This document shows positions 45,139-64,000 of a stretch of DNA of 64,000 nucleotides, one piece after another; the stretch's first letter is position 1, and each line of letters begins with the position of its first letter. The notes under the pieces are model-generated. The model had not been told where the DNA came from and made no database searches. It worked only from the letters and a program-made list of their open reading frames with translations. A program made the position numbers and the translations under genes. Origin of the DNA: Saururus chinensis (lineage: Eukaryota > Streptophyta > Magnoliopsida > Piperales > Saururaceae); the NCBI GenBank assembly GCA_035235625.1, contig CP141145.1, positions 25,112,563 through 25,176,562 on the forward strand. The letters run 5' to 3'.

Positions 45139-45455
45139 AATAACGATACATAGTTGTATTGGCCCCACGTAGTGATAACGATACATCATTATAACAATAT
45201 TGCTATGTCATCGTAGCAATATTGCTACATCGTTATAATGATATTGCTACAATGTTGCAGCAATAACGATATATCATTGAATCGATAATGCTACGTTGTT
45301 GTAGCGATATTGATACAACGTTGCAGCAATATCGATACATTGTTATAGCAATAATGCTACATCGTTGTATCAATATTGTTATGTTGTTGTAGCGATATTG
45401 CTACAATGCAGTGATATTGCTACAACGTTGCAGTGATATTGCTACAACGTGAACG
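45139..45455. repeat. palindromic tandem repeat, GCAATATTGCTAC type
   Basis: About a dozen imperfect 20-25 bp units combining (A/G)CAATATTGCTAC with A(T/A)CGTTGTA or ACGTTGCAG. Each unit is itself nearly palindromic. No coding frame. Confidence 0.8.
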
Positions 45456-48793: not shown

Positions 48794-49282
48794 ATGGCTC
48801 AGGTAGTGAAAGGTGGCTACTGGCCAGACTGGGTTGCAGGGTCTCTCTCAGCGTCCCAGATCGACACAAGCTTGTACACCCATGTGTATTATGCATTTGT
48901 CTTGCTGAACACAATCACATCCGAGCTCAACATCACCGCCGACCACCGCCAGGCCTCGGCTCTCCACAGCAAAAGCCCGCCGGCAAAGGCCTTGCTCTCG
49001 CTTGGTGGCGGCGGAGACTTCGACCCCAACATCTTCTCCAAGATGGCCGGCAGCCAGGCCACCCGGTCGGCCTTCATCCAAACCACCATTGCTGCGGCTC
49101 GCACCTATGACCTCGATGGCTTCAATATCAACCGGGGCTGCTATTCTTGTCAGGCCGGGATTGGACGGGTGGCTGCCTTCGCTCTGCTCGTTCGCCTCAG
49201 AGGGGATGATGGTGAAGGGGAGGGGAAGCTTGTGCACTTTGGACATGGGCGACTATCATTTACCGCTCATCCCTCCGCGTGA
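48794..49282 (+). pseudogene. GH18 class V chitinase fragment
   Basis: An open frame of 162 codons. Residues 5-110 match the N-terminal part of plant class V chitinases (glycoside hydrolase 18): VKGGYWPDW, IDTSLYTHVYYAF, then the SxGG strand as LLSLGGGG (67-74), and FSKMAGSQATRSAFI. The catalytic DGxDxDxE strand is broken: DLDGF is followed by NINRGC, and similarity then ends, so there is no catalytic Glu. There is no signal peptide before VKGGYW. A TATAAAA at about 48745 lies 50 bp before the ATG, probably by chance. About two thirds of the barrel is missing. Confidence 0.75.
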
Positions 49283-52773: not shown

Positions 52774-54997
52774 GCTCAACAATAGATGACAGAAGCTAAC
52801 TTTATAGGGTATGTGCAAATAGAATCTGACATATTAATTGGATTCATATAATATAAGGGATGCCCAAACTTTTCTTCATTTTCTCACAGTTGAACACATC
52901 TTAAAAATAAAGGAAATTAGATATATATTCACAACCTAAAATGCTTATCTTTAGTATTTATATTATTTTAAGGGATTCCTTGTGCAAAAAGTTCCCAATA
53001 TGTTGGCAGCAAATGAAAGAATAAAGTTGGCTCCTTATAAGGAAAGTACACTTAGTTATGTGCAGACCTACAATGGATCCTCTCTTTCTAATTTTCTTAA
53101 ATACTGTTGTTACTTCCAGCTCATAAATGCGCTAAAAACTTGAGATTAATATAGAGCTTAAACTGCACTCCCTTAACACTTCAGAGCAAAAGACGTAAGA
53201 AATTGAAAGGGTCCATAAACTTCCTTCCCAGCTAAAGAGAGTGACTTCCTTTGAGAAGTACATAGAATTGCCATAGTCTAGGCCTGCTGCACCTAAAGTT
53301 GGCTCCAGCCTAATCAGAGTACTAGTTCTTCGGTGCCCCAATCATGTTTCAGGGTAGCCGCAATCCTATACAGAGGTTTTGGTGCCAAAACTCCTGTCCG
53401 AATAATTCCTCTATCAAGTGCTTCACCTGCCATCATACAGGATTTGTTGCATCAAGTTGCCCTCATCAGTCATCACACCCTAGCAATGGCACATGAGGAT
53501 GAGCTTCGAAGGGACAGTCTTGATCAGGTGGCTCACCCTCAACAGTTTAAGACGAAATAACATTAAGCGTCATGGACAACATCATCTACCAATCCTCTCC
53601 GATTCCTATCTTAATACACTACAGTAATAAAATAACGATTTAAATGAGAGGACTATATTTGCCTTTTATAATACATACATGTGGGCATGATAGACAATCG
53701 TCCTTGAGGTTTGGAAATGTTTTTATTGGTGTAGGATGCTGAATGGGAGAAAAAGGAAGAGCAACGAGTACATCTAAATATTTTGTCATCTATGAAATTG
53801 CTAGGAAAGGTACTTTGCGGTTTCTTCATTGTGACTATCCAGTGAAATTTCAGCAGCACCACATAATCAAGTACCTCCTAATCAGTATACAAAAATGTTC
53901 TCAAATCAGGAATTTCTTAAGAAACCAACAAAAAATTCTCTATGTCAAAAGCAGCAAGTCTCACTGCCAGCAATACAACATTCCTATAAACCTTAGTTAC
54001 AAATTCGTCTGAGATACTTATATCTCATTTCTTAAACACAAAGTGACAACACCGATCCTTCCAATTTCCAAACCTAAGAAAAGAAGATCATTTGCTAATT
54101 TTCTTATGTGAATATTTAATGAATCAAATTACCTGATTCCTTATGCGAGTGTATAAATAATCAAATCACCTAAGGTTCTGAACGTAGGTTTTGAGCTAAA
54201 CTAAATCAATCAAAATTCACTGTTCATTATAATTTTCATCTTCGCTCCATGTCTAGGAAAGGTTTCTCAATCAATTGCAACATGACTAGCAATGGGGTCA
54301 CTAACATACCAACATGAAATTTTTAGGCCTTCTAATAAGAAAAAATACACTGTATGTTCTGAGAAATAGTTTCTTCCTAACACACATAGGGATGCCACCA
54401 CATGAATAATGTTTTTATAAATAATGACACACACTACAATTTTTTTCCATCACCAGAAGGTCTTCCCCAAATATGGCAATTATAAAACTAGCTTCAATTT
54501 TAAGGAATAACATAGCTAGATATTTGCAAGGGAAAATTTTAAAATGTCCATCTGCAATATTGAGTCCCCCAATTGCATGTGGGCACGTGTAAATTAGCTG
54601 TAGCCGGTCATCCTTTGGAGTCCACTGTCACATGCCCACCTGCAATAGGGGGCTCATTTTGGGCTCAATGGAGGTAGCATCTAAATATCTTCAGTTTGCA
54701 AGTAATACAACTAAATATCTTCAGTTTGAAAGTAATCCAGCACAAGAAAACCACATAAAGATGCGACGAAAACATAACCACCTGAATATCAAAAACCCAA
54801 GTTCTTTTGCATAAATTAACGCCAGGTTGGATGAAAAGCTCAGATTCACAGCGGTGACGATGTATACCTCGGATTGGAGCAGGCCAGGATCGGCCTTCAA
54901 TGCGCTTGATGCCATGCACCAGGAGTGAAGCCCATGGCTGATGCATCGTCAGACATGGGTTCGTGTAATTCCCTCTCCCCCGGCTACTGCCACTCAT
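49858..54997 (-). CDS. ASCH-domain protein, 210 aa, 6 exons
   Basis: Small protein with an ASCH domain, the PUA-like fold also found in the transcription coactivator ASC-1/TRIP4 and thought to bind RNA. Exons on the - strand: 54997-54868, 51900-51757, 50699-50632, 50543-50493, 50226-50167, 50037-49858 (633 nt; all phases close, GT/AG sites). The diagnostic GxKxxExR is present as G29-I-K31-R-I-E34-G-R36, after CLTMHQPWASLLVH. Next come GRLWIHAAGK (44-53), REIYAADGITDLKFPDHYP, LGCIEVVGCV (91-100), EYCWLCEQPK and VPFEMRGFQGVYNLE. The tail after about residue 165 is Ser/Ala-rich and ends AARQFSK. Plant homologues are annotated as RNA-binding ASCH proteins; substrate unknown. Intron 1 is 2,967 bp. 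Confidence 0.92.
52709..52769. repeat. (AT)30 microsatellite
   Basis: Thirty uninterrupted AT units in intron 1 of the ASCH gene. Confidence 0.97.
54681..54740. repeat. 30-bp direct repeat, two copies
   Basis: CTAAATATCTTCAGTTTG(C/A) plus AAGTAAT(A/C)CA(A/G), twice in tandem, in intron 1 close to exon 1. Confidence 0.9.
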
Positions 54998-55669
54998 CTT
55001 CCTTCACTCTCGTCCTTCGTCTCCAACAGAGAGATAGAAACAAGAACCAAAAACCTACTGGAGGCCACAGCGAATCCGCGTACCAAGTTCAAGATTCAGT
55101 TAGAATCCGAATTGGGTACTCCAGGTGCGTCTTCTGCGTTCCGAGTGGAGTTGGAGTCGGGGCCGGACAGTCCTACTTTCCCCAGTGGAACACTGACTTT
55201 CCGTTTTAATCTCAGTTCTTTGTTTTTTGTATCTCTTTTCGGTGTTAGCCTCCACCATTTTAGGCGCCAGCGTTGCAACTGTGTTGCGTGCTTTTCTTTT
55301 AATGGTTGGTCAGGTTTCATTCATTAGAAGTATGAAACTGAGGATTATTAGGTTTCAAATGGTCGAAACCTATAATCTTCAAGAGCCGCACCCTCCAAGG
55401 TCCAAACGATGGAACACTTCAAAGTACTGAATTTAGTCACTTGAGTGACAGACTTCATTTATTAAGATTCGTCATAAGGAATGACAAAATTAGCTCTTAA
55501 ACTTGTTTTTTTAAATATTTATTTAGCTATAAAATAAATAAATAATATGGGGAAAACAAACACATATGTAACTACTAGAAAAACGAGGAATGAAACTTAT
55601 GACACGAAAACAAACTATATATTTAGAAAAATCAGCAAAAATGCAAATGACATAAAGTGTTTCCACAAA
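54998..55669. other. upstream region of the ASCH gene
   Basis: 54998-55330 is GC-richer and open on both strands (up to 128 codons) without recognised similarity; it probably holds the 5' leader and promoter. 55430-55669 is AT-rich, with GACGAAT/GTCATTCC words like those in the MULE termini. Confidence 0.45.
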
Positions 55670-56725
55670 GGCAAAATTATATAAATAATATTAAAAAATT
55701 ATTTATCAAAATAGTACAAAGAAAAAAATATTTACTTAAATAGTATTTATTTTGGCCATGTAGGCTTCAACCAAGCGCTGATGTCTTAGTAGTTTTTTTT
55801 ATAAAAATTTTATGATTTTATTCTTCTAATATATTGATTTCATAAGTCAATAATAATCTAATTTGTCCCCTCTTCTCTCTTTTCTCTATTCACTCACTCT
55901 CTCCAAATTTTCTCTCTTCTCTTTCTCTCTATTCACTCTCTCTCCATTCACTTTCAGCTATCTTTCTTCTTCTCTGTCTATCTCCTCTTTCTTTCTCTTT
56001 TCTTTCTCATCTCTCTCCTCTCTTCTAAAAGATAAAATCATAATTTTTTTTAAAAATAAACATATTAATTTTATTATTTGTAAATATATTATATTTTATT
56101 TAAAATTTATTATTTTAATATATAATAAATAAGTAAGACAAAATTTAATTAAAATTTCCTACTTTCTGCCCTATCTTCCTCAAAGCTAGAGCTCATGCTC
56201 ACACACATGGAGAGAGAAAAAAGAAAGGAGAGTGTGAAGAGAGAGAAAGAGTGTTGAAAGAGAGAGAGTGTGTGTAAGAGAGAGACACGAGAGAGAGAAG
56301 CGAAAATGAAGAGAAAGGAGAGAGGAGAGAGAGGAGAAGAGAGATAACCAAAAGAGAGAGGAGAGAGAGTGAATAGAGAAAAAGTGAATAAAGAGAGAAG
56401 AGAGAGAAAGGGGAGAGAGAGTAAATAGAGAGAGAGAAGAGAGAAAGAGGAGAGAGTGAGTAAAAAGAGAGGTAGGAGAGAGAAGAGAGGACATATGAGT
56501 TCATTATTGATTTCATCCTTTAGAAGGACGAAATTATATTGATTTCATCATTTAACAATACTGATTTATCCGAAGGACAAAATCATAATTTTTTTTAAAA
56601 AGCCACACAGGCGGCAACGCTTGGTTGGTGCCTACATGGCCAAAATAAACACTGTTTTAGTAAATATTTTTTTCTCTTTGCTATTTTACTAAATATTTTT
56701 TTAACATTATTTATATTATTTTCCC
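55670..56725. mobile_element. foldback MULE derivative, 1,056 bp
   Basis: The arms are terminal repeat copies D (55670-55830, inverted) and C (56505-56725). Inside them a CT-rich tract (55862-56025) faces a GA-rich tract (56205-56500), so the element can fold almost end to end. The outer ends are GGCAAAATTATATAAATAAT and its inverse ending ATTTTCCC. Flanks TTCCACAAA (55661-55669) and TCCCAAAAA (56726-56734) agree at 7 of 9 positions, fitting the 9-bp duplication of Mutator elements. No coding. Confidence 0.7.
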
Positions 56726-56780
56726 TCCCAAAAATTATGTTATATAAAAAAGTTTCACTTTATAAATATAAAAAAATGTA

Positions 56781-59700
56781 TCAAAGAGCTCTACCTCTCC
56801 TACCCTTACTACGACCCCGACTTTGGCCTTGTCCCTAACCTCATCCTTAGCCATGAAGTTGGGCATACTGGTCCTTGTAGATAACTGATAAATCATCTAA
56901 ACATGCCTCTGAATATAATGGGATGAGATATGCATGAGCTGCCCGTTGTTGTCTAGTATATACCCTCGATATAATTAGTATCTCAATTGGCAGAAGATGA
57001 GCTTGATCTAGAGCAACCAAAGATGATGGACGTAGACTATCATGCAATGTTGAAGTTCATGAAAATAAAGGAAGAGGGAAGGCTATTGCAAATGGAGATA
57101 AAACATCCATGTATGAAGCTGGCCTTGTTAATATTTGAGTTGCTTCGTCGATGTGATAATGTCCATGTATATCTATAATAACCGATTGAAGTAGTAATAA
57201 GCTATGAAGGATAAACTGATTGTACTCGATGATTGACTGATATGATGCTAACAAGACCTTAAGTGAAGTATATGTGTTAATGACATCAATCAAATGTGCA
57301 GTTGTCCGTCTCAAACAATCAAGCTAGTATAGAAAATAAAATAGTGTCACATAAACACTATACATGAAATAAGAAAATATGTTATAATTAATAATTACTT
57401 ACCAAAGCCACCTCAAATGTACCTCTAGGCTGATATATTGTCACACCTCGCCACACACCCTTGACCCGAACCCAATCTAGATTGGTGAGATAAGACACGA
57501 CGAAGTAGAAGACTAACCTAAGAGGATCTTAATCAAAGTACATAACACATGACCTTTGTTCATCACACTAACATCATCTCATGATGAAAATAGTCACGAG
57601 CCAACAAGGCTACATCATATCTAAAGCCAACACAGTCTATCCATAACATGAAAAGTAATAAGTACCAACATCAACATAATCATGATATAAGTCTAAATTT
57701 GACAAAGTAACTAGCCTCATCTTCCATAAGTGTATCTACTCATCCTCAAGTTCGTGATACAATCCATCATGAACACTTACATGACACAATACACAACCCC
57801 AAACAAAACCACATAAAAAAGGGTAAGCTTAGCTTAATAAGACTTTTAATCAAATGACACAAGCTCATGTTAATACCACGTGCATTCATCCTATAGAAAT
57901 CATCTTATTCATGTATCACATCTACACTTGTGCATTATAAGATTCATCATAATTTATAAACATACATGCACACTATGTACATTCATTCAATCTCATGATT
58001 CATTCACATCCTTCATTAGTCAAGTATCATCATTCATAATCACCCTGTATAATTAAGTATATCAAACCACATCCATCCTGCATGTTCAAGTATAATTATC
58101 CCATAAGCATTTTGTGTAAATATATCATTATCCCTATACAACCTTTGTCAATGAGTATTGTAATCCATATGCATGCATAAATAATACGATGAATGTCTCA
58201 TAATAGATAAAACAATCCTGCTCACCCTAGCTAAAGGCTAACCAGATTTACTGACTCAAGAAATCCTTAAAAAAGAAATCTGAATTTTTTAAAAAATCTA
58301 AAAAATTAAGAATATAATCTAGACATGATAACCTACTCCCAAAAAAATTTTGAGAGAAAAACTCGAAGTAAAAACATTCAAAACATAGTCGTAAATCTAA
58401 ACTAGAGAGTCGTTTAGTTGTTCGACCTGCCAACAAGACAATCGAACAGTCGGAATGGAATTGTTAAAATAGTCATCTTCTACTACTCAAAACCAAACTA
58501 AATTTCTTCCAAAAAATCATAAAAATTTCTAAAACTTCATGAAACTTCATATAATCATTACCTAAGCCTAAAACATAACATATCTAATATTTTCTATGCT
58601 TAAACATACAAAAATAATATCAAATCACATGCTTTTAAGAAATCACTATAACACATTAAGAAGCTTCAAAAGCTTAGATCTACCCACAACTATGGTGTTA
58701 CAAGCAAGAAAACCACTCGAAATGAAAACCTCTTCCTCTAATCAGCTTGTTAACCTCTTGAATGAAATCCAACCTCAAGAATCCCAACCCAAAATTAGGG
58801 TTTTTATTAGTCCTAAGCAAATCCAAGTTTTTCACCAAAATAGACTCAAATCAACAAGAAGATGATAGATCCAAGACTCCATCGGGTTAAGAACAAAAAT
58901 CACATGGATTAAAGTTTTTAATTAAGATTAAAGAGATGAAAGTTAAGGGAAAAACAAATAATCTTAATAGAAGAGGTGAAACATAGGATTATCAAGACAA
59001 AATTGGAAGGATTAAGGAGTGATTAGGGAAATTCTTACCTTAAGATGTGATTTCCGCTTTGGGAATGGGGGTAGAGCTCTAGCCTCCTTCAAATCTTAGC
59101 CCTTCCCTAATTAGGAATGGGTTAAGTTTTTTTTTTATAGTAAGTGGCTAATGGGCTAAAAATTTAATTATTGAGCTAGAAAATATGCTAATAGGTCTTA
59201 AGTGACCCTATAAGTGCACATTTGACTCAATAAAAAAAAAAGCAAACCCTAGCCCACTTAGACAAATCAATAGAAGTTTTAGGGCGACGGGGTTAGCACG
59301 CCACCTGATATAGACGTGGGTCCCATAGAGGGGCCCGCTTCCTTGATTAAGGAATTTAAATAGAAAAATGACTTCAAACTAATATTCTAAACTAAAATAA
59401 AATTAAACCTTAAAAAATTTATAATTATACTAACCCATTACTCCCAAAAAAATATAATTAAACCAAAACAAATAATTTTACACTAATATAAAAGGCATTA
59501 AAATTAGAAGATTTTACATATATCATCTCCTCTACATCATTGTGTGGTAGAATGTATATGCGGGTAATCCTCAAATACAAATGCATTATGGGCTACAAAC
59601 ATCGCACACCAATGTATCAATCTCCCCTCAATAATATTTGCCCTCCACTCATCCCATCAAGCAATATAAGCTGCATGATGTATAGCCCAAACAGCAATGT

Positions 59701-59965
59701 GGTGGCCCTATCGAATAACTTAATGGATGAACTCAATAGTACAAGGAGAAGTATCATGCTCTAACCCAAACTACAACATCATATGGTTAGGGACATGCAT
59801 CTCCACAATCTTGAAGCAAATTAGTAGCATTCTAGATAGCCACACATCCTGTCCCTTTATAAATAGGGGATGCAATGTAGACAACATCTCATCCAAGTAT
59901 GGCCGCCAAACGACCTACACAAGATTTAAGCATAGCTAGTCTTTAATAACATCACATAACTTATA
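56781..59965 (-). pseudogene. PMD gene remnant, transposon-borne, copy 2 (split by a solo LTR)
   Basis: Same gene as at 1-1101, on the other strand. From 59965 downward: W-R-P-Y-LDEML, GQDVWLSRMLLICFKIVEMH, AIHHAAYIA-WDEW, then RIYILPHNDVEEMIY directly before the solo LTR at 59518. The frame resumes after it as QPRGTFEVAL, then a second exon with MRRTTAHLIDVINTYTSLKV, LLLLQSVIIDIHG and RQQRAAHAYLIPLY, ending RGRSKGRRGRAL and a stop at 56783-56781. Several stops lie in the first part. Upstream it joins a MULE transposase N-terminus without a gap (about 59965-59980). It is dead but clearly homologous to copy 1. Confidence 0.75.
57439..59518. mobile_element. solo LTR, 2,080 bp, inserted in PMD copy 2
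   Basis: Begins TGTCACACCTCGCC, ends GATTTTACA, with perfect 5-bp target duplications TATAT (57434-57438, 59519-59523). Removing it restores the PMD frame EEMIY-QPRG seen in copy 1. No gag or pol. It shares GGTAAGCTTAGCTTAATAAG and GTAGAGCTCT segments with the LTR at 30695-33089 but differs in length and detail. Confidence 0.87.
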
Positions 59966-61212
59966 TTCATCAATGCACTAAAATGTATATTCGACATATT
60001 TGCGTGCAAAACTTTATATTGGATACGATTCCTAATTGAATACTCTCTCAAAGCTGTAATGAATGCATATCTATCCTCAAATATTCGTCCAATATATAAC
60101 TCTTCTTCAGACTATTGCTCCATATTTGTACCCTAATTAACTGCTTCACCTATTTGCTCATCTGTAATACACGCATAAATTTGATCCTCCTCAACATCAC
60201 AGTATGGTGGCTCCTCATCTTCAACATTCATGTTATTTGCGACAATTATATTATCTACCACATCATCCCCCTTGTCGTCAACTATCTATTGTACATTTTG
60301 CTCCCCTCTAACACCTTCTTCATTTATATCATACTCCTCATCACTTCCTTCACCAATGTTATCTTTACCTTCATTGGCCTCATTCATATCAACTCCATCA
60401 TCATGGACATGGGCTCCCTACACATGCATTACAAATTTGTATTAAATTTGTGTTATATATATATAAAGAGAGAGAGAGAGAGAGAGATGATTGGATGTCC
60501 CAATGTCTATAAATTCAACACCTGTGAGGGGTAATGACAACCTATCGAGGTTTGTGCTTCAAATCATGCACCACGTTGTGACATTCTAAGGCTTACTATC
60601 ATGTGTATGAGATTTGTACCTTACATATTATATAAAAAATTGAAAACTTCAATCTCATTATTTTCATCAACAATTAAAATATTCACACATGATAATCTTA
60701 AAAACCTTACCTCCAACTAGGTTCACTTTCATCATCAATAGGTGTAGATGACTCATGACGTTCGTTCGACACTACTGTCATAAACAAATTATCATCTTTA
60801 TTGTCATCCACTAGCATTTGCATGTATCTTCTATAACTAGCATTTCTTTGGTAGCTCTTAGTTACACTTTGCCCTTCACTTTCAAAACTAGACACTTGGG
60901 TCTCTTTTTCTAAAAATAGCTTGAACGTGCATACTTGAGAAGAATGATGAAATATTTGTCTAAAGGAAGTCTCGTCCTCTATAAGTAGTAGAGTCAATCT
61001 CAATCCAAATATAGGAAAGTTACACTTTATTATAATTTTCCATTTCCTTCGATCCAATCAACTTTGTTAGCCACTTGCAATTTAAGTTCATCATAATAAG
61101 AATGCTTGTTGATTAATAATCTCACCAAATCCCCTTTATATTCATGACCTCCTCCATGTTTTGTCACTCTCCTACCATGGTGAAGTATAAAACTAGCAAT
61201 TTCTCCCACCAT
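59966..61212 (-). pseudogene. MULE transposase N-terminal part, left arm copy
   Basis: Starts MVGEIASFILHHGRRVTKHG at 61212, then VANKVDWIEGNGKL, an acidic linker region with stops, and GRIFEDR-AFITALREYSIRN with HANMS near 60010. Just past a degraded CID(E) it passes straight into the PMD remnant; the catalytic DDE region present in MULE 1 is absent. It is therefore an internally deleted element. It is related to 22353-23632 and is the left half of the inverted repeat at 60263-63201. Confidence 0.75.
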
Positions 61213-61518
61213 GTACTATTTATTAATTTATAATAAATATTTAAATCTTAGATAGATTACAATTTATAACTAGACATAAATTGAAGACTATCATTCAAGC
61301 ATTATAATTAAAAGAAACATAAGACTATCATTCAAGTATTATAAGTAAAAGAAAAGCATTATCGACATAAATTGAAACATGATACGACACATTATAATTA
61401 TAACATGAAGGCATAAATTAAAACATGAAGTCATGCCCACATTAGAACAAGAAGCATAGATATATTAGAGACCTTATGCCTCTTTTCTAGTAAGTATAAC
61501 ATATCATGTCCTAATTAT
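60263..61518 (-). repeat. long inverted repeat, left arm
   Basis: About 1.25 kb, inverse of 61959-63201. Over 61081-61218 against 62261-62399 I count about 12 differences in 139 bp (roughly 91 % identity). It includes the (AG)n run at 60469-60486, mirrored by CTCTCTCT near 62988. Confidence 0.85.
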
Positions 61519-61958
61519 TCCCCAGGCAAATATTTCCATGAAACTGTCATGCCATTTGGAGGGAAGAATATCATCAATGGTAAAGAGCTCCTTGTTGTCG
61601 GTATTTGTAGGAAAATGCCGAGTAAAAGTAGCATCAAAATTTGGCTCATGTTTTGTGTCACCTAACTGCTTAGAGTCAGAGGGTTGTTTAATTGTAGGAT
61701 CACCATGCTTAAAAAGTTTAAGAAAACTTAGGTCAATCTTGAAGGAGGTGGAAGCATTTGAAGATGCAAGGTAGTTTTTTCTAGGGGTGTTCTATAAGCA
61801 AGAGGCTCGGAGGAATGAAACAATAGGATTGGGTTCTTCAATAGGGAAGTAATGAAAAGGCTGTTGGGAGGAAGCTTCAAGATCAGGGGAGAGGGGGACC
61901 AAATTTTTTTTTTAGGCTTTTTACGGTGTATGACTCTTTACTTAACTTGAAAACTTGC
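61519..61958. other. spacer of the inverted repeat
   Basis: 440 bp between the arms. A 78-codon frame (61538-61774, +) starts MKLSCHLEGRISSMVKSSLL and continues in broken frames; I do not recognise it. Not repeated elsewhere in the window as far as I can see. Confidence 0.6.
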
Positions 61959-63201
61959 ATAATTAGGACATGGTATGTTATAGTTACTAGAAAAGAGGCA
62001 TAAGGTCTCTAATATATCTGTGCTTCTTGTTCTAATGAGGACATGACTTCATGTTTTAATTTATGCCTTCATGTTATCATTATAATGTGTCATATCATGT
62101 TAATATATGTCGATAATGCTTTTCTTTTACTTATAATGCTTGAATGATAGTCTTATGTTTCTTTTAATTTTAATGCTTGAATGATAGTATTCAATTTATG
62201 TCTAGTTATAAATTGTAATCTATCTAAGATTTAAATATTTATTATAAATTAAATAAATAGTACATGTCGGGAGAAATTGTTAGTTTTATACTTCACTATG
62301 GTGGGAGAGTGACAAAACATGGAGGAGGCCATGAATATAAAGGGAATTTGGTGAGATTATTCATCACTAAGTATTCTTATTATGATGAACTTGAGATGTA
62401 AGTGGCTAACAAAGTTGATTGGATCAAAGGAAATGGAAAATTATAATAAAGTGTAACTTTCCTATATTTGGGTTAAGATTGACTCTACTACTTGTAGAGG
62501 ACAAGACTTCCTTTAGATAAATATTTCATCATTCTTCTCAAGTATGAACGTTAGAGCTATTTTTAGAAAAAAAGACCCAAGTGTCTAGTTTTGAAAGTAA
62601 AGGGCAGAGTGTAACTAAGAGCTACCAAAGAAATGCTAGTTGTAGAAAAATGTGCAAATGCTAGTGGATGACAATAAAGATGATAATTTGTTTATGACAA
62701 TAGTGTTGAACGAACGTCATGGGTCATCTACACCTATTGATGATGGAAGTGAACCTAGTTGGAGGTAAGGTTTTTAAGATTATTATGTGTGAATATTTTA
62801 ATTATTGATGAAAATAATGAGATTGAAGTTTTTAATTTTTTATATAATATGTAAGGTACAAATCTCATACACATGATAGTTAGCCTTGGAATATCACATG
62901 CAGTGCATGATTTGGAACACAAACCTCGATAGGCTGTCATTACCCCTCACAGGTGTTGAATTTATAGACATTGGGACATCTAATCATCTCTCTCTCCTAT
63001 ATATATATAACACAAAATTTAATACAAATTTGTAATGCATGTGTAGGGAGCCCATGTCCATGATGATGGAGTTGATATGAATGAGGCCAATAAAGGTGAA
63101 GATAACATTTGTGAAGCAAGTGATGAGGAGTATGATATAAATGAAGAAGGTGTTAGAGGGGAGCAAAGTGTACAATAGATAGTTGACGATAAGGGGGATG
63201 A
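61959..63201 (+). repeat. long inverted repeat, right arm
   Basis: Inverse of 60263-61518. It is cut off at 63201 by the LTR that begins at 63202. Small indels relative to the left arm are visible, for example a shorter (AG)n/(CT)n run. Confidence 0.85.
62264..63201 (+). pseudogene. MULE transposase N-terminal part, right arm copy
   Basis: ATG at 62264 gives MSGEIVSFILHYGGRVTKHG, then EYKGNLVRLF and VANKVDWIKGNGKL, followed by stops. It is the inverted duplicate of the segment beginning at 61212. It ends at the LTR insertion, before the conserved IFEDREAF motif. Confidence 0.75.
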
Positions 63202-64000
63202 TGTCACGCCCCGGCGATGCCCGACCTGAGCCGAACCCAGTCCAGGGGCCGGTCAAGCGCGCGGGGGCGACGAAGGGAAAATTGAGAAACGATCTAGTGG
63301 AAGACTTAACCCTAACCACGGGTGATTTACATAATTACAGAATACGCACAATCCTTTGAGTAAGAGTAAATAAGAAGGAAAGAAAGTGTGTTGCTTATCA
63401 CAAAGTAAACAACTAATCTCAAACCCACATGCTTAGTTAACTAAAGCCCACACTGGCTCAAAATAAGTCAAAAGCATCACAACTGTAAAATGTGACATAA
63501 ATCCAAAACAACAAAGAACCCTACACAAAGGTCCTAAACATAAAACATAAAACCAAAGGAAAATGAGTCACACAACAATCTCCACGATTTGCATCCAAGT
63601 CATCTCTAACCTTTCCTCAAAGAGGAGATCCTGTCCGTCTGCGTGTCGCACCATGCAGCCCCAAAACAAAACACAAGAAAGAGGGGTGAGTTTAACAAAC
63701 TCAGCAATGGTTTTTAATATCACAATCAACATCAAAAATACGACAGCATAGCAATATAATCAATCAGATCAAAGATTGGCAAGGTGCATCATTTCCTGAT
63801 CACACACACATCACCTAAAACTGTATCATAGTGCATGATCCACATAATATCATTCACATCATAACAACCTGCATGAATGTATCTCCAACGTACATGTTCT
63901 ATCATGCATCATATCATAATCAACCTGCATGAATGTATCTCTAACATACATATTCCATCATGCATCATATCATAGTCAACCTGCATGAATGTATCTTTAA
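63202..64000. mobile_element. large LTR, start only (runs off the window)
   Basis: Begins TGTCACGCCCCGG inside the right arm of the inverted repeat; the arm sequence stops exactly there. The start resembles the other LTRs of this window (TGTCACACCC, TGTCACACCTC, TGTAATGCCC). It contains GGGGTGAGTTTAACAAACTC near 63680, the counterpart of the GTGAGCTTAG segment in the other copies. The target duplication would be GATGA (63197-63201); the far end is outside. Confidence 0.65.
63860..64000. repeat. tandem repeat, about 55-60 bp unit
   Basis: Three copies of a unit with AACCTGCATGAATGTATCT followed by CATCATGCATCATATCATA, inside the LTR at the right edge. The last copy is cut by the window end. 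Confidence 0.85.

Follow-up and report, generated by a model that had tools for sequence, protein, structure and literature searches.

A Mutator-like element with an old internal inverted duplication, probably a transposon fossil

The palindromic locus at the right-hand side of the window (the whole stretch of 64,000 nucleotides that we analyzed) is likely a fossil: a Mutator-like element (MULE) that underwent an old internal inverted duplication, accumulated nested-repeat debris and has no trans-silencing role today. The shape of the locus is unusual but explicable, and a silencing role, possible in principle, is unsupported. Most likely, nothing is silenced in trans at present; the most to be expected is a folded leftward transcript whose siRNAs would act back on the locus itself. 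Coordinates above 64000 carry the same numbering on past the window end, beyond which 20 kb were read.

The inverted repeat and its host element

By BLAST, the sequence at 60260-61518 matched 61959-63204 in inverted orientation (E 0.0), with a 440-nt spacer between the two. The full arms extended further and measured approximately 1.74 kb each. The left arm (59781-61518, minus strand) matched 61959-63204 and 66582-67063 in inverted orientation and was collinear with relatives on both of its sides; it holds the 5' leader, the N-terminal part, half of the DBD_Tnp_Mut domain and, from about 59970, PMD-like sequence. The right arm, the inverted copy, has its inner part on the plus strand at 61959-63201 and picks up again at 66587-67063, outside the window, its two pieces being split by a 3.38-kb solo-LTR-like insertion that the left arm does not have. 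This insertion (63202-66581, annotated at 63197-64000 in the window and running past its end) possesses TG...CA ends and a 5-bp target duplication, GATGA, at 63197-63201 and 66582-66586. The inverted repeat and the 440-nt spacer of the original prediction were thus recovered, but its arms of about 1.25 kb proved to be about 1.74 kb long, the right one being interrupted at 63202. The arms were also more similar than the 90% or so first estimated: we measured 94.7% identity over 1717 aligned positions (K2P 0.055), with 91 differences (69 transitions and 22 transversions) plus 8 indels. As a control, the longest inverted repeat in 18 related 10-kb loci, a small and biased sample, was 198 bp.

On sequence grounds, the host element is a MULE with a PMD-like 3' part that spans approximately 55.66 to 70.01 kb, with its gene on the minus strand. 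Its terminal inverted repeats, at 55660-55736 (3' end) and 69941-70015 (outside the window), aligned over 78 columns, and no match to the terminal repeat was found in either arm. The right terminal repeat recurs in the genome (best 40 of 349 first-look candidates scored); eight of the ten relatives tested scored above 60 against it, and all eight matches ended at 70003-70008. MULEs duplicate about 9 bp of their target site, and a comparison of the host flanks by eye gave no convincing target duplication. Close inverted pairs of the 5' terminal repeat were observed at C9:21427228-21428285 and C7:18920402-18920726, which suggests short non-autonomous derivatives. Inside the host element, beside the 3' terminal repeat, lies a CT-rich low-complexity stretch (55857-56544), and similar stretches occur near the relatives L017 and L020. 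The PMD-like rest of the resident element (56764-59780, minus strand) consists of two pieces, 56764-57436 and 59518-59780, split by a second solo-LTR-like insertion (57439-59518, TGTCACACC...TTTTACA, target duplication TATAT). A further stretch, at 43-785 by the left border of the window, showed approximately 68-69% identity with 59518-59950 and 57133-57436.

The order of the parts was read from relatives using Pfam. Behind its N-terminal part, L011 carries DBD_Tnp_Mut (PF03108, E 3.7e-10), then a MULE domain that matched weakly (PF10551, E 0.22), and finally a PMD-like match below the curated cut-off (PF10536, E 9.9e-06). L017, collinear with L011 over the stretch, has a complete PF10551 domain above the cut-off (E 1e-12), and the PF10551 match of L018 is also above it (E 1.6e-18). 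For the left copy in the window, DBD_Tnp_Mut gave a weak match below the cut-off (E 0.11), and PF10536 behind the right arm was below the curated cut-off as well (E 1.8e-04). At the deletion junction (59969-59970, minus strand), DBD_Tnp_Mut is broken near profile position 34, the catalytic region is gone and PMD-like sequence comes next, equivalent to a jump from 6024 to 8889 in L011. The right arm makes the identical jump between 66851 and 66875 (L011 6024 to 8890); the window copy of the MULE is without its catalytic part in both arms. Using 59781-60259 as query, 38 of the 40 best-scored matches started at position 186 or later, which corresponds to the junction, and among these 40 the junction was crossed by the two arms only. 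Since one deletion junction is common to both arms, the deletion preceded the duplication and the copied gene was already defective. The catalytic deletion and the PMD-like join that had been predicted for the left copy are real, but they are not restricted to that copy.

The insert that carries the inverted copy was delimited by comparison with relatives. L055, located near the end of contig C6, matched the left arm at its positions 1-1099 (72%), the sequence at 68027-68672 at 1124-1791 (80%) and the sequence at 69540-70007 at 1796-2270 (69%); its sequence passes from the equivalent of 61518 to that of 68027, with 24 bp extra at the join. L019 and L020 matched up to 61480 and then at 68030, with a 39-bp match only. 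The collinearity of these three relatives identifies the left arm as resident, and the comparison establishes 61519-68026 as sequence inserted in the 5' region of the element. The spacer (61519-61958) is a repeat fragment made of two pieces joined at about 61900. Its portion 61519-61900 had at least 41 other matches, up to 90% identical (best 40 of 65 first-look candidates scored), most of which begin at the first base of the spacer, and 61899-61957 matched the same repeats, about 1.7 kb further along in several copies; C11:23946847 and C11:23948906 provide an example of this repeat. The spacer as a native MULE flank was ruled out since it is a dispersed repeat fragment. On the other side of the inverted copy, 67064-68026 (about 960 bp) is a mosaic of pieces matching dispersed repeats at differing sets of places.

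Comparison with relatives shows that this MULE, with its PMD-like 3' part, lost its catalytic region before its 5' region gained an insert, between 61518 and 68027, composed of a repeat fragment, an inverted 1.74-kb copy of the adjacent element and more repeat fragments. As the mosaic suggests, the inverted copy most likely arose from template switching during error-prone repair of a break; stepwise insertion and deletion could leave a comparable pattern. A solo-LTR-like element entered the inverted copy after it had been formed. The insertion at 57439-59518 may have occurred before or after the inverted duplication.

Relatives, age and possible targets

The genome was searched with 60263-61500 as query and the best 40 of 887 first-look candidates were scored. 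Besides the two arms, this set gave at least 39 long matches at 38 loci, 72-83% identical, the best match being 79% identical over query positions 3-1025. We compared the arms with 35 relatives, namely 34 of the 38 loci and a MULE of the window, 16 of the 35 being known as 0.6-1.1 kb sequences only. The original prediction had recommended a search for MULEs with high identity to the arms; among these 35 relatives (best 40 of 887 candidates), the top one was 83% identical (L046, 616 bp, on the segment 60260-61290), compared with 94% between the arms on the same segment. In the tree, the arms were sisters (support 1.000); their common stem had a length of 0.106 and their tips 0.043 and 0.040, and the tips of the 35 relatives measured about 0.08-0.19. 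Judging from these branch lengths, the copies of the MULE family would have split well before the duplication. With the relatives as outgroups, 28 changes on 60260-61290 were assigned to the left arm and 26 to the right arm, 10 being undecided. C>T or G>A accounted for 32 of the 54 assignable changes, a bias expected of methylated repeats. Assuming 1.3e-8 substitutions per site and year, the arms would date, as a rough guide, from about 2 million years ago.

The MULE family with a PMD-like 3' part has many copies in the genome of 516 Mb and 11 contigs (e.g., L011 4500-9997 and L017 6066-6719). The longest gene-strand frame per locus ranged from 74 to 276 aa in the 18 related 10-kb loci, with exons left unjoined and frames that may lie outside the element. 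Frames with a MULE domain above the Pfam cut-off were found in L017 (218 aa) and in L018 (276 aa, running off the end of the stretch), so that the family is not wholly decayed and possible targets may remain; the idea that all copies are decayed was dropped on this basis. The 276-aa frame, at L018 9172-9999, is part either of the family element or of another MULE. L024 (C11:22110382-22112500) carries the N-terminal segment twice, as direct tandem copies.

Exact words common to arms and relatives were counted after removal of low-complexity words, and the counts are lower bounds for the 16 relatives known from 0.6-1.1 kb. At least one exact 21-mer was common to an arm and 31 of the 35 relatives, and a 24-mer to 23 of them. 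The number of common 21-mers per relative ranged from 0 to 34, and 144 of the 1635 left-arm 21-mers matched at least one relative; blocks still common to arms and relatives lie, for instance, at 60643-60667 and 61019-61043. L017 and L018 had at most 15 exact 21-mers in common with either arm. The related MULE that had been predicted in the same window does exist, at 22.4-23.6 kb and 74% identical to the left arm, but it had 0 exact 21-mers in common with the arms and was ruled out as a target. The genome is rich in MULE domains with long frames (best 150 of 2831 PF10551 candidates scored). None of these 150 places started less than 33 kb from the 41 long arm matches, in a set that represents the strongest domains and leaves weaker ones, such as those of L017 and L018, outside it.

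Hairpin potential and rival explanations

As anticipated in the original prediction, the folding of 60260-63204 gave a long stable duplex, with a predicted MFE of -2057 kcal/mol and 1209 of 1342 pairs joining the two arms, against -645, -622 and -637 kcal/mol in three trials with the right arm shuffled. The opposite strand was predicted at -1988 kcal/mol. Any inverted repeat of such length would fold likewise, and the predicted stability is no proof of function. The 5' end of the element (about 70.0 kb) is on the right and points left into the palindrome. A promoter still active there would transcribe the inverted copy, the spacer and the resident copy; the 3.38-kb insertion now stands between this 5' end and the palindrome centre. 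A domain scan took in ten frames around the locus, up to 72.7 kb: an ASCH-domain frame (54668-55003, minus strand) is directed away from the locus, a GH18 frame (48794-49279, plus strand) lies about 10 kb away from it, and four frames at 66.9-72.7 kb gave a PMD match only. An Rfam scan of 50-64 kb yielded nothing at the gathering threshold. A 22-bp tandem repeat array is present at 45175-45450.

A locus of the Mu killer type, now or formerly, whose hairpin siRNAs act in trans to silence the transposases of its own MULE family, would account for the inverted copy of a transposase 5' part taken from a deleted element, and would agree with the very stable predicted hairpin, with the 5' end reading leftward into the inverted copy, with the 21-mers and 24-mers common to 31 and 23 relatives and with the MULE-domain frames kept by L017 and L018. 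We nevertheless regard it as improbable. The top relative is only 83% identical, exact 21-mers are few in each relative (0-34, for 1635 in the left arm, with 16 of the 35 relatives covered over 0.6-1.1 kb), and none of the best 150 PF10551 places starts within 33 kb of a long arm match, L017/L018-type domains being outside that list. Moreover, the common stem precedes the duplication in the tree, the topology is opposite to that of Mu killer in the available description of the latter, and the solo-LTR-like insertion separates the 5' end of the element from the palindrome centre. The specific mechanism by which the element would silence its relatives along with itself, with a hairpin transcribed from the element's 5' end and siRNAs from the common blocks methylating part of the old MULE family in trans, is very improbable. 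A siRNA source acting in cis alone, with diced palindrome transcripts methylating their own locus and perhaps its neighbours, is possible though doubtful: the predicted duplex and the abundance of C>T and G>A changes (32 of 54) are compatible with it, but methylated repeats without a hairpin are expected to show an equal bias.

Two further explanations concern the origin of the palindrome. MULE domains are common in this genome, and two independent insertions could in theory lie head-to-head with no local duplication. This scenario, to which we give almost no credit, was rejected on the deletion junction common to both arms, on their sisterhood (94% to each other and at most 83% to relatives on the same segment) and on the flanks of the insertion, which are collinear in relatives; the right arm, in addition, is without a terminal-repeat match. 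An assembly artefact, produced by a fold-back or chimeric read, is likewise extremely unlikely and was rejected: 91 of the 1717 aligned positions and 8 indels distinguish the arms, each of which has changes of its own, and an insertion with its target duplication is confined to one of them. Such divergence and such a one-sided insertion argue against an artefact. The reading that we prefer is that of a fossil MULE with an old internal inverted duplication.

Comparison with known systems

Templated filler and patch repair of double-strand breaks occur in plants. The insert may resemble the products of such repair in being a mosaic of dispersed repeats and adjacent DNA, and in the 24 bp that appear to be missing in comparison with L055. 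The available part of PMC7156037 mentions no Mutator or MULE. According to the portion of PMC5418596 at hand, MULE transposases fused to PMD have been reported for several grasses and Amborella. The present family is similar to these fusions through relatives with DBD_Tnp_Mut (L011), MULE (L017) and a PMD-like stretch (L011, below the cut-off), and through the terminal inverted repeats at 55660-55736 and 69941-70015. We recognised no complete, intact gene in the examined copies of this PMD-like MULE family.

Silencing of the Mu killer type is expected to require near-identity to an active target element. In the available text of PMC3440606, both halves of Mu killer start with TIRA, run 1.298 kb into mudrA and are co-linear with mudrA, and the centre of the locus could not be sequenced. 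The same text attributes antisense transcripts, started at an internal promoter, to Mu killer plants that silence, and sense transcripts, by read-through from a flanking gene, to those that fail to silence; it itself doubts that read-through hairpins are the silencing agent (PMC3440606).

As in Mu killer, the 5' part of a Mutator transposase gene is present here as an inverted duplication, the source was an internally deleted element, and a long hairpin RNA would be possible. By contrast, the 5' ends of the gene face the centre here, whereas the Mu killer halves, as described in that text, have TIRA outside and the gene inward. In the present locus, no terminal repeat was detected in the arms, the terminal repeats lying outside the palindrome at about 55.66 and 70.01 kb, a repeat fragment separates the arms, and no close target was found for them among 35 relatives (best 83%). 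The parallel with Mu killer that had been predicted holds for structure, i.e., an inverted and already deleted transposase part. Its functional side finds no support: given the opposite topology, as far as the available description of Mu killer goes, the 83% identity of the top relative and the 0 21-mers common to the window MULE, a Mu killer role is unsupported. Overall, the locus is a cautionary case, since a hairpin shape by itself is weak evidence that a locus silences; before such a claim, one should examine how closely the targets match, which way the arms face and how old the duplication is. If the locus did make siRNAs, it would be a natural analogue of Mu killer, born by rearrangement within a transposon.
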